64,000 nt of DNA from NCBI RefSeq assembly GCF_001280255.1, contig NZ_LHCI01000106.1:1403766-1467765 (forward strand), written 5' to 3'. Made by a program: the position numbers and the translations under genes. The stretch is from Thermus aquaticus (lineage in GTDB: Bacteria; Deinococcota; Deinococci; Deinococcales; Thermaceae). The notes below the pieces were generated by a model, which was not told where the DNA came from, ran no database searches, and was given only the letters and a program-made list of their open reading frames with translations. Shown piece after piece: positions 16,939 through 45,135 of this stretch (positions are counted from its first letter, which is position 1; every line of letters starts with the position of its first letter).

Positions 16939-17260
16939 ACCCGGAAGAAGGCCTCCACCGGCAGGACGAAGACCACGGCCCCCCCCACCTGGACCTCCAC
17001 CGGCTGGGCCAGAAAGGGGTCGGGGGCCTCGGAGAGGGGGAGGCCCCGGGTGACCAGGCGGGTGCGGGTGCGGCACTTCTCCCGGATGAGCTCCAGGGCC
17101 TCCTCCACCCGGTCGTCCTCGAGGCCGATGAGGAGCGTGGTGTTCCCCTCCCTGAGGAAGCCCCCGGTGGAGGCCAGCTTGGTGGACTGGAGCCCCCGCT
17201 CCAAGAGGGCCTTGGTGAGCCCGGGGGCGTCCGTGTCCTGGACGATGGCCACGATGAGCT

Positions 17261-40526: not shown

Positions 40527-41873
40527 CTAAATGCCCAGGATCAGCCGGGCCACGCTCAGGTAGATGAGGAGGCCGATCACGTCGGAGAGGGTGGCGATAA
40601 GGGGGTTGGAGACCAGGGCCGGGTCCACGCCGAGCCGCCTTAGGACCATGGGGAGCGTGGAGCCCACCAGGTTGGCGAAGAGGACCAGGAGGAAAAGGGA
40701 CAGGCCCACCACGGGGATGAGGGGGCCATAGCCGTCCAGCCCCACCTTGATGAGGAGGACAGAGGCCAGGGTGAGGCCTAAAAGGCTTCCCACCACCGTT
40801 TCCTTGAATAGGACCCGCCGCCAGTCCCTGAGGTCCAGGTCCCGGGTGGCCAGGGCCCGGATGATGAGGGTGGCCGACTGGTTGCCCGTGTTCCCCCCGG
40901 TGCCTATGAGGACGGGCACGTAAAAGGCCAGGGCGGTGACGGCCTCCAGGACGCTTTCAAAGCCCTGCAGGATGGAGCTGGTCACCATCCCGGTCAGGAT
41001 CAGGATGATGAGCCAGCGCACCCGGGCCAGCCAGAGCTGGAGCGGCGAGGCCTGGCTGTAGACCAGGTCGGGCACGTCCACGGCGGCCAGCTTGTGGATG
41101 TCCTCGGTGGCCTCCTCCTCCAGCACGTCCAGGACGTCGTCCACGGTGACGATGCCCACGAGGTGCCCCTCCTCGTCCACCACCGGCAGCACGGTGAAGT
41201 CGTAGTCGGCCATGAGGCGGGCCACCTCCTCCTGGTCGGTGTCGGTGCGGACGTAGACCACCTTGGGGTTCATGATCTCGGCCACCTTGGTCCTGGGGTC
41301 GGCCACGATCAGGTCCCTCAGGGAAAGCACGCCCATGAGCCGGCCCTCCTCGTCCACCACGTAGAGGTAGTAGATGGTCTCGGCGTCGGGGGCGGCCCGG
41401 CGCAGGAAGCGGAGGACGTCCTCCACAGCCATGGAGGCCCGCACGGCCACGTACTCCGGAGTCATGAGGCCGCCGGCCTCGTCCTCCTCGTACTGGGTGA
41501 GCTCCTCCACCTCGGCCCGGGTTTCGGGGTCCAGGGCCTCCTTGAGCTTCCTGGCCAGGGCAGGGTCCTCCTCCTCCACCGCCTGAAGGGCATCGGCCAG
41601 GTCGTCCAGGGAGAGCTCCTCTAAAAGCTCCTGGACCCGCCAAGGGGGGAGGGTCTTCAGGTACTCGGCCTGGTCCTCGGGGGGGAGGTTGGAGAAGACC
41701 TCGGCCGCCCTCTCCTTGGGGAGGAGGGTGAGGAGGACGTAGCGGTGCTCCCCGTTGAGGTCATCCCAGATGAGGAGGAGGTCCTGGGGATGGGCCTCCT
41801 CCAGAAGCCGCTTCAGGCTGAGGGTGTCGCCCTCTTCCAGGGCCTTCAGGATGGGGGAAAGAATCTTTTCCAT
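40527..41873 (-). CDS. mgtE: Magnesium transporter MgtE
   Basis: Mg2+ channel, 448 residues, the same architecture as the crystallised Thermus protein: N-terminal superhelical domain (~1-130), two CBS domains (MTPEYVAVRASMAVEDVLRFLR ~137 and MNPKVVYVRTDTDQEEVARLMADYDFTVLPVVD ~200) that gate by Mg2+ binding, a plug helix, and five transmembrane helices from ~280 with the pore-region PVLIGTGGNTGNQSATLIIRAL. Its leader contains a bistable hairpin system. Confidence 0.96.
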   Translation of the reverse strand: MEKILSPILKALEEGDTLSLKRLLEEAHPQDLLLIWDDLNGEHRYVLLTLLPKERAAEVFSNLPPEDQAEYLKTLPPWRVQELLEELSLDDLADALQAVEEEDPALARKLKEALDPETRAEVEELTQYEEDEAGGLMTPEYVAVRASMAVEDVLRFLRRAAPDAETIYYLYVVDEEGRLMGVLSLRDLIVADPRTKVAEIMNPKVVYVRTDTDQEEVARLMADYDFTVLPVVDEEGHLVGIVTVDDVLDVLEEEATEDIHKLAAVDVPDLVYSQASPLQLWLARVRWLIILILTGMVTSSILQGFESVLEAVTALAFYVPVLIGTGGNTGNQSATLIIRALATRDLDLRDWRRVLFKETVVGSLLGLTLASVLLIKVGLDGYGPLIPVVGLSLFLLVLFANLVGSTLPMVLRRLGVDPALVSNPLIATLSDVIGLLIYLSVARLILGI

Positions 41874-41989
41874 GGGCGGCCTCCTTTCTCGCCGAAGGCC
41901 GCCCGGAGGCGGCCTTCAGGGCCTGGGACTCGAGGGCAGAGCCTCGCGCATACCTCTTCTAAGCTAAGGGCAGGGCCTTTTCCCGTCAA
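41874..41989 (-). promoter_or_regulatory. mgtE promoter and bistable 5' leader (candidate RNA switch)
   Basis: Promoter on the minus strand: TTGACG (41989-41984), 17-bp spacer, TAGCTT (41966-41961), predicting an ~80-nt leader. Near its 3' end GAAGGCCGCC and GGCGGCCTTC form a perfect 10-bp hairpin (41917-41894, TCCG loop). The second arm extended, GGGCGGCCT (41904-41896), is also perfectly complementary to AGGCCGCCC (41882-41874), which overlaps the Shine-Dalgarno AAAGGAGG (41887-41880) and abuts the ATG. One fold exposes, the other hides, the ribosome site. I do not see the M-box magnesium riboswitch consensus. Confidence 0.6.
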
Positions 41990-42081: not shown

Positions 42082-43374
42082 ATGTTCCAACAGCTTTCGG
42101 CGCGACTGCAAGAGGCCATCGGCCGCCTTAGGGGGCGGGGCCGGATCACCGAGGAGGACCTGAAGGCCACCCTCAGGGAGATCCGCCGGGCCCTCATGGA
42201 CGCCGATGTCAACCTGGAGGTGGCCCGGGACTTCGTGGAGCGGGTGCGGGAGGAGGCCTTGGGGAAGCAGGTCCTGGAGAGCCTCACCCCCGCCGAGGTG
42301 ATCCTGGCCACCGTCTACGAGGCCCTCAAGGAGGCCCTGGGGGGCGAGGCCAGGCTCCCTGTCCTCAAGGACAGGAACCTCTGGTTCCTGGTGGGCCTCC
42401 AGGGCTCCGGCAAGACCACCACCGCCGCCAAGCTGGCCCTCTACTACAAGGGCAAGGGGAGGAGGCCCCTCTTGGTGGCCGCCGACACCCAGAGGCCCGC
42501 CGCCAGGGAGCAACTAAGGCTTCTGGGCGAGAAGGTGGGCGTGCCCGTGCTGGAGGTGATGGACGGGGAGTCCCCTGAGTCCATCCGCCGCCGGGTGGAG
42601 GAGAAGGCCCGCCTCGAGGCCCGGGACCTGATCCTGGTGGACACCGCCGGCCGCCTGCAGATTGACGAGCCCCTCATGGGGGAGCTGGCCCGCCTCAAGG
42701 AGGTCCTTGGCCCGGACGAGGTTCTCCTGGTCCTGGACGCCATGACCGGGCAGGAAGCCCTTTCCGTGGCCAGGGCCTTTGACGAGAAGGTGGGGGTCAC
42801 GGGCCTCGTCCTCACCAAGCTGGACGGGGATGCCCGGGGCGGGGCGGCCCTTTCCGCCCGCCACGTGACGGGCAAGCCCATCTACTTCGCCGGGGTTTCC
42901 GAGAAGCCGGAGGGCCTGGAGCCCTTCTACCCCGAGCGCCTGGCGGGCCGCATCCTGGGCATGGGGGACGTGGCCAGCCTGGCGGAGAAGGTGCGGGCGG
43001 CGGGGCTGGAGGCGGAGGCGCCCAAGTCCGCCAAGGAGCTTTCCCTGGAGGACTTCCTCAAGCAGATGCAGAACCTCAAGCGCCTGGGCCCCTTCTCCGA
43101 GATCCTGGGCCTCCTGCCCGGGGTTCCCCAGGGGCTTAAGGTGGACGAGAAGGCCATAAAGCGCCTGGAGGCCATCGTCCTCTCCATGACCCCCGAGGAG
43201 CGCAAAGACCCCCGCATCCTAAACGGTTCCCGGCGCAAGCGCATCGCCAAGGGAAGCGGGACCTCGGTCCAGGAGGTCAACCGCTTCATCAAGGCATTTG
43301 AGGAGATGAAGGCCCTAATGAAGTCCCTGGAGAAGAAGAAGGGCCGGGGACTCATGGGAATGTTCAGGAGGTAA
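42082..43374 (+). CDS. ffh: Signal recognition particle GTPase Ffh
   Basis: Targets membrane proteins co-translationally. 430 residues: N domain (1-~90), G domain with [15 protein letters not shown] (G1 ~105), [20 protein letters not shown] (G3 ~187), [10 protein letters not shown] (G4 ~245), and a Met-rich M domain ([49 protein letters not shown]) that binds 4.5S RNA. First gene of ffh-rpsP-khpA-rimM-trmD-rplS. rpsP follows after 7 bp. Confidence 0.97.
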
Positions 43375-43381
43375 AGGAAAA

Positions 43382-43645
43382 ATGGTCAAGATCAGGCTTT
43401 CTCGGTTCGGCTCCAAGCACAACCCCCACTACCGCATCGTGGTCACCGATGTCCGCAGGAAGCGGGACGGCGCCTACATTGAGAAGATCGGCTACTACGA
43501 CCCCAGGAAGACCACCCCGGACTGGCTCAAGGTGGACGTGGAGCGGGCCCGGTACTGGCTTTCCGTGGGGGCACAGCCCACGGACACCGCCCGGAGGCTC
43601 CTCCGCCAGGCGGGGGTCTTCCGGCAGGAGACCCAGGGGGCCTAA
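43382..43645 (+). CDS. rpsP: 30S ribosomal protein S16
   Basis: 87 residues: [21 protein letters not shown], then [42 protein letters not shown], the complete S16 core. The ribosome site is inside the end of ffh (AGGAGGTAAAGG). A strong terminator-like hairpin lies immediately after the stop. Confidence 0.97.
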
Positions 43646-43658
43646 AGGAGCGCCCCCC

Positions 43659-43690
43659 GCGCCCGGGGCATCCCCGGGCGCTTTTCCTTT
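43659..43690 (+). terminator. Intrinsic terminator between rpsP and khpA
   Basis: GCGCCCGGGG (43659-43668), loop CAT, CCCCGGGCGC (43672-43681), then TTTTCCTTT. It sits in the middle of an otherwise tight gene series and ends four bases before the khpA ATG, so the downstream genes must depend on read-through or on a promoter not seen here. Confidence 0.8.
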
Positions 43691-43693
43691 ACC

Positions 43694-43921
43694 ATGAAAG
43701 CTATGAAGGACCTGGTGGAGTATTTGGCCAAGAGCGTGGTGGACCGCCCAGAGGCGGTCCGGGTCCAGGAAAGGCGTGGGCGGGAAGGGCCCGTTTACCT
43801 GGTGGAGGTGGCCCCCGAGGACAAGGGGCGCCTCATCGGCAAGGGGGGGCGGGTCATTGAGTCCATCCGCACCCTGGTGCGGGCCTACGCCAAGCGCAAG
43901 GTGGGCGTGGAGGTGCGGTGA
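43694..43921 (+). CDS. khpA: KH-domain RNA-binding protein KhpA (YlqC)
   Basis: 75 residues, a single KH domain: MKDLVEYLAKSVVDRPEAVRVQE, then EVAPEDKGRLIGKGGRVIESIRTLVRAYAKRK with the RNA-binding GKGG loop (~51). In other bacteria it pairs with KhpB and acts as an RNA chaperone; the rpsP-khpA-rimM order is widely conserved. Start could be ATG 43694 or ATG 43703; neither has a ribosome site, since the preceding bases are the terminator T-tract. Confidence 0.9.
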   Translation: MKAMKDLVEYLAKSVVDRPEAVRVQERRGREGPVYLVEVAPEDKGRLIGKGGRVIESIRTLVRAYAKRKVGVEVR

Positions 43922-44415
43922 TGGCGGGGCGTCTGGTGGAGATCGGCCGTTTCGGCGCCCCCTACGCCCTGGCGGGCGGGCTGAAGTTCCGGGGGGAGCC
44001 GGTGGTGGCCCATCTAACGCGCATCTACGTGGAGGGGCACGGCTGGCGGGCGGTGGAGGACCTCTACCAGGTGGGGGAGGAGCTGGTGGTGCACCTAGCC
44101 GGGGTCTCCACCCGGGAGCTGGCGGAGGCCTTGGTGGGCCTTCGCGTCTACGCCGAGGTGGCCGACCTCCCTCCCCTCGAGGAGGGCCAGTACTACTACT
44201 TCGCCCTCATCGGCCTTCCCGTCTACGTGGAGGGGCAGAAGGTGGGGGAGGTGGCCGACATCCTGGACGCCGGGGCCCAGGACGTGCTAGTGATCCGGGG
44301 GGTGGGGGAGAGGCTCAGGGACCGGGCCGAGCGCCTGGTGCCCCTCCAGGCCCCTTACGTGCGGGTGGAGGCGGAGGGCATCCACGTGGAGCCCATCCCC
44401 GGCCTCTTTGACTGA
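43921..44415 (+). CDS. rimM: Ribosome maturation factor RimM
   Basis: Assists 30S head assembly with S19. 164 residues: N-terminal RimM domain (LVEIGRFGAPYALAGGLKFRG, ~3-23) and C-terminal PRC barrel (YYYFALIGLPVYVEGQKVGEVADILDAGAQDVLVIRG, ~94-130). The usual G-x-x-G-I-x-G-x-v motif is changed to APYALAGGLKF. ATG overlaps the khpA stop as TGATG. Confidence 0.93.
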   Translation: MAGRLVEIGRFGAPYALAGGLKFRGEPVVAHLTRIYVEGHGWRAVEDLYQVGEELVVHLAGVSTRELAEALVGLRVYAEVADLPPLEEGQYYYFALIGLPVYVEGQKVGEVADILDAGAQDVLVIRGVGERLRDRAERLVPLQAPYVRVEAEGIHVEPIPGLFD

Positions 44416-45135
44416 ATGCGCTACACCTTCATCACCCTCTTTCCCCAGCTGATCCGTCCCTGGCTGGAGGAGTCCTTGATCGCCAAGGCCTTGCAGCGGG
44501 GGCTTCTTTCGGCGGAGGTGGTGGACCTCCGGGCCTTCGGCCTGGGGCGGCACCGCAGCGTGGACGACACCCCCTATGGGGGCGGGGCGGGGATGGTGAT
44601 TCGGGCCGACGTGGCGGTGGCGGCCATAGAGTCGGCCCTGCCGGCCGACGAGGTCATCCTCCTCTCCCCGGCGGGCAGGCCCTTTACCCAGGAGGTGGCC
44701 GAGGAGCTTTCCCGGAAGGAGCACCTGGTCCTCCTCTGTGGGCGGTACGAGGGGTTTGACGCCCGGGTGGAGGCCTTTGTGACCAGGAGCCTCTCCATCG
44801 GGGACTACGTGCTCATGGGGGGGGAGGTGGCGGCCTTGGCGGTCCTCGAGGCCACGGCCCGCCTGGTGCCCGGGGTGATCGGGGACCCCATGAGCCACCG
44901 GGAGGACTCCTTCGTGCGGGGCCTTCTGGACTACCCCCACTACACCAGGCCCCCGGAGTTCCGGGGCCTAAAGGTGCCGGAGGTGCTCCTTTCGGGAGAC
45001 CACGAGGCCGTGGCCCGCTTCCGCCGCAAGGAGGCGTTAAAGCGCACCTTGGAGCTAAGGCCCGAGCTCCTCTTGCGGGCCAGGATCGGGGCCCTGGAGG
45101 CCGGGTGGCTTGCGGAGATGGACCGGGAAGGGTAA
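44416..45135 (+). CDS. trmD: tRNA (guanine-37-N1)-methyltransferase TrmD
   Basis: Makes m1G37, preventing +1 frameshifting. 239 residues: [38 protein letters not shown] (~55), the SPOUT knot [15 protein letters not shown] (~111) and [20 protein letters not shown] (~131), and [25 protein letters not shown] (~175). The ATG directly follows the rimM stop. Confidence 0.97.

Follow-up and report, generated by a model that had tools for sequence, protein, structure and literature searches.

In Thermus aquaticus, the leader of the magnesium channel gene mgtE is probably a translational attenuator of the leader-peptide type, in which a ribosome on a very short upstream ORF would control which of two mutually exclusive RNA folds forms at the mgtE ribosome site. 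The leader lies in a window of 64,000 nucleotides (the whole stretch of DNA that was analysed), on the minus strand, upstream of a 448-amino-acid mgtE ORF (40527–41873), with ffh running divergently on the plus strand. The mgtE start codon is ATG in the present genome and GTG in 24 of the 26 genomes that carry the element.

Read on the minus strand, the 5' half of the leader runs TTGACG-17 nt-TAGCTT-9 nt-ATGCGCGAGGCTCTGCCCTCGAGTCCCAGGCCCTGA-AGGCCGCC, and the 3' half, after AGGCCGCC, runs TCCG-GGCGGCCTTC-GGCGAGAA-AGGAGGCCGCCC-ATG, the last triplet being the mgtE start. It opens with a predicted promoter consisting of a −35 box TTGACG (41984–41989; TTGAC[AG] in the 26 genomes) and a −10 box TAGCTT (41961–41966; TANNNT in 26/26 genomes and TAGGCT in most relatives), spaced by 17 nt in 24 of the 26 genomes and by 18 nt in the other two. 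This promoter is upstream of the first pairing arm, whereas a transcription start downstream of that arm would have spoken against the first-pass annotation. A leader ORF follows (41916–41951; ATG CGC GAG GCT CTG CCC TCG AGT CCC AGG CCC TGA, encoding MREALPSSPRP), whose ATG is 9 or 10 nt from the end of the −10 box in all 26 genomes. Since the usual −10 spacing places the RNA start just before this ATG, the mRNA should begin about 3 nt before it and thus be nearly leaderless, which is reported as a common way of expressing genes in Deinococcus-Thermus (PMC12340547).

The first-pass annotation had described three arms and two exclusive folds at the mgtE ribosome site, and the minus-strand sequence is as it described. 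Arm 2 (GGGCGGCCTTC, 41894–41904, reaching 41892 if paired with arm 1; 10-nt core GGCGGCCTTC at 41903–41894) pairs either with arm 1 (CTGAAGGCCGCC, 41908–41919; 10-nt core GAAGGCCGCC at 41917–41908) over 10–12 bp or with arm 3 (GGAGGCCGCCC, 41874–41884) over 11 bp, and the two alternatives exclude each other. Arm 1 includes the leader stop TGA (41918–41916), and arm 3 comprises the Shine-Dalgarno (SD) sequence GGAGG (41884–41880) and the spacer to the start codon. The pairing of arm 2 with arm 3 (2:3), thought earlier to cover part of the SD, holds the whole GGAGG core within its 11-bp helix of GGGCGGCCTTC with GGAGGCCGCCC, including one G.U pair, and abuts the mgtE start codon. Likewise, the hairpin of arms 1 and 2 (1:2), annotated as 10 bp, is present and in most species is 12 pairs long, with the U of the leader UGA among them. 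The two folds are nearly equal in energy, as had been stated, with −13.8 kcal/mol for 1:2 and −14.1 kcal/mol for 2:3 as isolated stems at 65°C in the present genome, and in most relatives 1:2 is better than 2:3 by about 1–3 kcal/mol. The predicted mean probability of 1:2 is 0.64, 0.68, and 0.71 at 37, 65, and 75°C, and, as a point against an attenuator, the folding model gives 2:3 as dominant in a few genomes even without a ribosome.

This layout is more than chance. When the 119-nt segment was shuffled 20,000 times with dinucleotides preserved, no shuffle reproduced a hairpin of at least 10 bp with a third arm at the 3' end (10/8 bp), and only one of 20,000 did so at a looser setting of 8/8 bp. 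At the looser setting, a search of both strands of the window found one further place (16986–17119), which is on the plus strand close to where a minus-strand gene starts and where the 3' arm of an 8-bp hairpin can also pair downstream. The overall folding energy of a 150-nt stretch is ordinary (z = −0.14); the evidence lies in the specific arrangement and its conservation. An intrinsic terminator was not found in the leader, either as a U-run or in a terminator scan.

Conservation of the element across Thermus supports functional selection well. Homologs of mgtE are present in all 50 family genomes searched, including 27/27 Thermus genomes, and the element accompanies the gene in 26 of these 27, among them Thermus scotoductus, T. 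parvatiensis, T. brockianus, T. igniterrae, and T. arciformis. Arm 3 (GGAGGCCGCC), whose lack of conservation would likewise have spoken against the first-pass annotation, is identical in 26/26 element-bearing genomes, and arm 2 (GGCGGCCTTC) in 25/26, the exception being a fragmentary, 65%-complete assembly; the hairpin loop (3–5 nt) and the spacer between arms 2 and 3 (7–9 nt) both drift. In the alignment, 99.6% of cells are paired between arms 1 and 2, where four of 12 pairs vary and a single one is changed on both sides (C-G to G-C in G018), and 99.6% are paired over the 11-bp helix of arms 2 and 3, where the outer pair occurs as A-U, G-U, or G-C and is unpaired in one of 23 distinct leaders. 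Covariation is weak, since the arms hardly vary, and the observed level is reached by 46/500 shuffles for 1:2 and 29/500 for 2:3. A strict DNA pattern matched 24 Thermus genomes, once each, with no match for a reversed control pattern, and as an exact pattern, which variants would escape, it had no match outside Thermus among 84,980 species genomes. In two genomes (G002 and G021) the upstream gene is a different one and the leader is still there; therefore, the leader belongs to mgtE rather than to the ffh promoter. A genome-wide repeated DNA motif was also considered and ruled out, as there is one arrangement per genome and the 13-mer TGCCCTCGAGTCC is almost restricted to mgtE leaders, with 0–2 further copies per genome.

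The leader ORF is conserved as an ORF. Both its ATG and its TGA are retained in 26/26 element-bearing genomes, its length is 36, 39, or 42 nt only, and the two indel events found within it, +3 in G002/G021 and +6 in G003, are both in frame, unlike the distance from TGA to mgtE, which is 40, 41, 42, or 43 nt. These stop-to-start distances also rule out that the leader ORF is fused to mgtE by readthrough or frameshifting. In 23/23 distinct leaders the U of UGA is unchanged, even though in 14 of them it faces a G in the stem, with which C would pair better, and this fits selection for the stop codon. The peptides follow the pattern M-x(3,4)-L-P-S-S-x(3,5)-stop, from which G017 (SPSS) and G006 (LPPS) each depart once, and contain 1–4 prolines each.

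Conservation is strongest in the codon block CCC TCG AGT (Pro-Ser-Ser; 41928–41936), in which CCC and AGT are kept in 26/26 genomes and TCG in 25/26. By comparison, in MgtE of the same genus a single codon is kept at 44 of 219 invariant residues (20%) and at none of 12 prolines; AGT makes up 1.8% of serine codons and is among the rarest codons of the window. From these codon counts, we read the invariance of CCC and AGT as probable selection on decoding speed. Pairwise differences in the leader ORF number 337, 409, and 318 at codon positions 1, 2, and 3; these counts show no third-position excess, which points to selection on the nucleotide sequence, with or without selection on the peptide, and the conserved block could act as a signal in RNA or DNA instead of as a run of codons.

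The position of the ribosome on this ORF is suited to setting the switch. A bacterial ribosome shields ~12 nt downstream of the codon that it is reading (PMC4833913), and arm 1 proper is the 8 nt directly 3' of UGA; therefore, a ribosome at the stop codon covers arm 1. When the footprint of such a ribosome is blocked in the folding model at 65°C, 1:2 is abolished and 2:3 becomes dominant, and the mean cost of opening the mgtE SD rises from 2.9 to 7.5 kcal/mol, with an increase in 26/26 leaders. In a position scan, a P site at least six codons before the stop leaves mainly 1:2, and one at most four codons before it gives 2:3. CCC, TCG, and AGT stand six, five, and four codons before the stop, that is, at the changeover of the folds, except in G003, where the +6 insertion moves them by two codons. 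Of the features expected of a leader-peptide attenuator, three are present here: a conserved short ORF with start and stop before the gene in 26 of 27 Thermus genomes, exclusive stems of which one hides the downstream SD, and, in silico by geometry and position scan, a ribosome on the ORF that overlaps the switching arm.

Building on this anatomy, conservation, and energetics, we infer the start of transcription, translation of the leader ORF, the ribosome pause, and the polarity of the switch as follows. Ribosomes would load without an SD on an mRNA beginning about 3 nt before the leader ATG. In the OFF state, the ribosome would reach UGA and linger there with its footprint over arm 1, and arm 2, once transcribed, would pair with arm 3 and close the mgtE ribosome site. 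In the ON state, the ribosome would be delayed or lost at or before the Leu-Pro codons that precede Ser-Ser, leaving arm 1 free to form the 1:2 hairpin, and the mgtE ribosome site would be open. By analogy with MgtL and MgtQ, the likely signal would be low Mg2+, which might slow or destabilize the ribosome at CCC and then at the rare AGT. If low Mg2+ holds the ribosome back, mgtE would be switched on, which is the sense expected of an uptake channel.

Several other explanations need to be weighed. The one that survives best, although we consider it improbable, is that the leader ORF merely feeds ribosomes to mgtE through termination and reinitiation, with the hairpins tuning efficiency and nothing being sensed. 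It is true that a short ORF lies near the gene, and boosting translation in this way has been suggested as a role of leader genes, with a distance peak that is also seen in Deinococcus-Thermus (PMC4833913). However, that peak is at 10–11 nt, well below the stop-to-start distance of 40–43 nt here, and reinitiation gives no reason for an invariant arm 3 or for the rare codons.

Slightly less probable still is a translational riboswitch, in which the leader would bind Mg2+ or another ligand directly and the ligand would select 1:2 or 2:3 with no need for the ORF to be translated. Two exclusive folds of almost the same energy where a metal channel gene has its SD, together with a conserved CCCTCGAGT stretch upstream of the arms, are what such a sensor might look like, and the first-pass annotation had suggested that the upstream ~50 nt are its ligand-responsive part. 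However, just ~40–45 nt lie 5' of arm 1, and these hold the conserved leader ORF instead. The only stem in this stretch, GCGAGG/CCTCG, was examined as a candidate aptamer and rejected, since it is not conserved (76% of cells paired, and 500/500 shuffles are as good). The M-box (ykoK) riboswitch is found in leaders of Mg2+ transporter genes, including mgtE in Bacillus, and unlike it the Thermus leader is a translational switch of ~80 nt built around an ORF, with no aptamer. As the first-pass annotation had remarked, the M-box is absent here: neither it nor another metal riboswitch was matched in Rfam (cmscan, gathering and E-value modes) in the window or the relatives, and no family lies above the gathering threshold at this leader. 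The riboswitch reading is thus not supported.

A DNA operator is very improbable. In that case the repeats AGGCCGCC/GGCGGCCT/AGGCCGCC would bind a repressor downstream of the promoter, for which the presence of one word as both inverted and direct repeats and the conservation at the nucleotide level could be cited, but operators seldom have words separated by such variable distances (a loop of 3–5 nt and a spacer of 7–9 nt), each genome has the arrangement once, and the flank base of arm 3 pairs with arm 2 in 22 of 23 distinct leaders. Finally, an RNA thermometer, suggested earlier and in keeping with structure over an SD in a thermophile, is not supported and is the least probable reading, because the two G+C-rich folds melt alongside each other, with predicted occupancies hardly changing from 37 to 75°C.

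Among known systems, the leader-peptide attenuator proposed for Thermus most resembles mgtQ, which precedes mgtB in Salmonella and for which control of the ribosome-binding site of a Mg2+ transporter gene by an upstream ORF and alternative stems is established (PMC8092293). In both cases, a very short ORF with alternative stems lies 5' of a Mg2+ transporter gene, and control is translational, with the ribosome-binding site of that gene being hidden. However, mgtQ is internal to an operon, carries an SD of its own, and depends on Asp2/Glu5 (PMC8092293), whereas in Thermus the ORF is nearly leaderless, is found at the 5' end, and is followed by an MgtE-family channel gene. Across the 26 Thermus leader peptides, the acidic residues on which MgtQ relies show no conservation, occurring in some genomes only. 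The leader is also analogous to mgtL (of mgtA) and corL (of corA) in enterics, in which a leader ORF with Pro codons is translated and the progress of the ribosome picks between exclusive folds; efficient translation of MgtL and CorL at high Mg2+ represses the transporter (PMC11552253). By contrast, the output of mgtL and corL is Rho-dependent transcription termination rather than direct sequestration of an SD, and no sequence similarity to the Thermus leader is apparent by eye.

As a sensor, m1G37-dependent Pro codons CC[C/U] together with the Mg2+-dependent enzyme TrmD have been proposed (PMC6335274). In the window, an ffh-rpsP-rimM-trmD cluster (42082–45135; gene identities assigned by eye from translations) lies divergently beside mgtE, so that mgtE has as a neighbor the gene for TrmD, the enzyme behind the m1G37 tRNA modification that has been suggested to gauge Mg2+ in the Salmonella mgtA leader; this may be a coincidence. 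A further candidate cis-regulatory RNA before mgtE, the mgtE motif, which includes the SD and is regarded as a riboswitch candidate, has been reported in Thioalkalivibrio only (PMC11109978). Our search of the literature found nothing on the Thermus mgtE leader or on control of T. thermophilus MgtE synthesis.

The only Thermus genome without the element, G016 (L002), encodes an MgtE that is 93% identical and adjoins that of the present genome in the MgtE tree (84/99 support). It retains the promoter, mgtE, and CCCTCGAGTCC, but ATT replaces ATG, there is no stop at the position of the leader stop and no hairpin, and GGAGGCCATCC replaces arm 3. That start, stop, hairpin, and arm 3 have all gone together fits their being one functional unit. 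G016 also offers a natural strain in which constitutive expression of mgtE could be tested.

In relatives of the Meiothermus type the mgtE leader is a different one, which occurs in 21 of 23 family members of other genera and in G039, of a neighboring family (leaders L055, L057, L060-L063, L065, L066, L068, L074-L084, and L086). It contains an SD-led upstream ORF (uORF), GTG GAA GAT CAC AGT TCT AGT CGA AGG..., encoding (M/V)EDHSSSRR... up to a stop, in which AGT serine codons recur. Within this uORF lies a hairpin with compensating variants (CGGTGTG/CACACCG, CGGTG/CGCCG, CGGTGTCT/AGATACCG, and CGGCGC/GCGCCG), and a 7–12-nt complement of the mgtE SD (GCTTCCTTC/GAAGGAGGC or TTTCTCCC/GGGGGAAA) could serve as an anti-SD; no Rfam match was found for this leader. 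It looks like an independent uORF attenuator of mgtE. In one of the 21, G032 (L056), the uORF frame is broken by a ~7-nt deletion while the hairpin and anti-SD are retained, a case that could tell apart what the peptide does and what the RNA does. Neither uORF leader is present in L058, L059, L064, L069-L073, L088, and L089 (genus g3 and several genera of the neighboring family), some of which have a short hairpin after the −10 box, such as GGCTTTCTCGAAGCC in L071. The fuller picture, in which codon-specific slowing at CCC-TCG-AGT senses Mg2+ in Thermus and sister genera use a second uORF attenuator, is one that we put forward tentatively and with some doubt.

MgtE of T. thermophilus is a main structural model of Mg2+ channels, and the mgtE leader in Thermus is probably a magnesium gauge based on translation and not on direct binding of the metal by RNA. 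If true, a leader-peptide switch would carry translation-based Mg2+ sensing to a distant phylum, and both leader types would lie outside the enterics, where leader-peptide control of Mg2+ transport is described. It would also provide a short, nearly leaderless, and genetically accessible system in which to address the disputed identity of the Mg2+ sensor, be it RNA, tRNA, or the ribosome.
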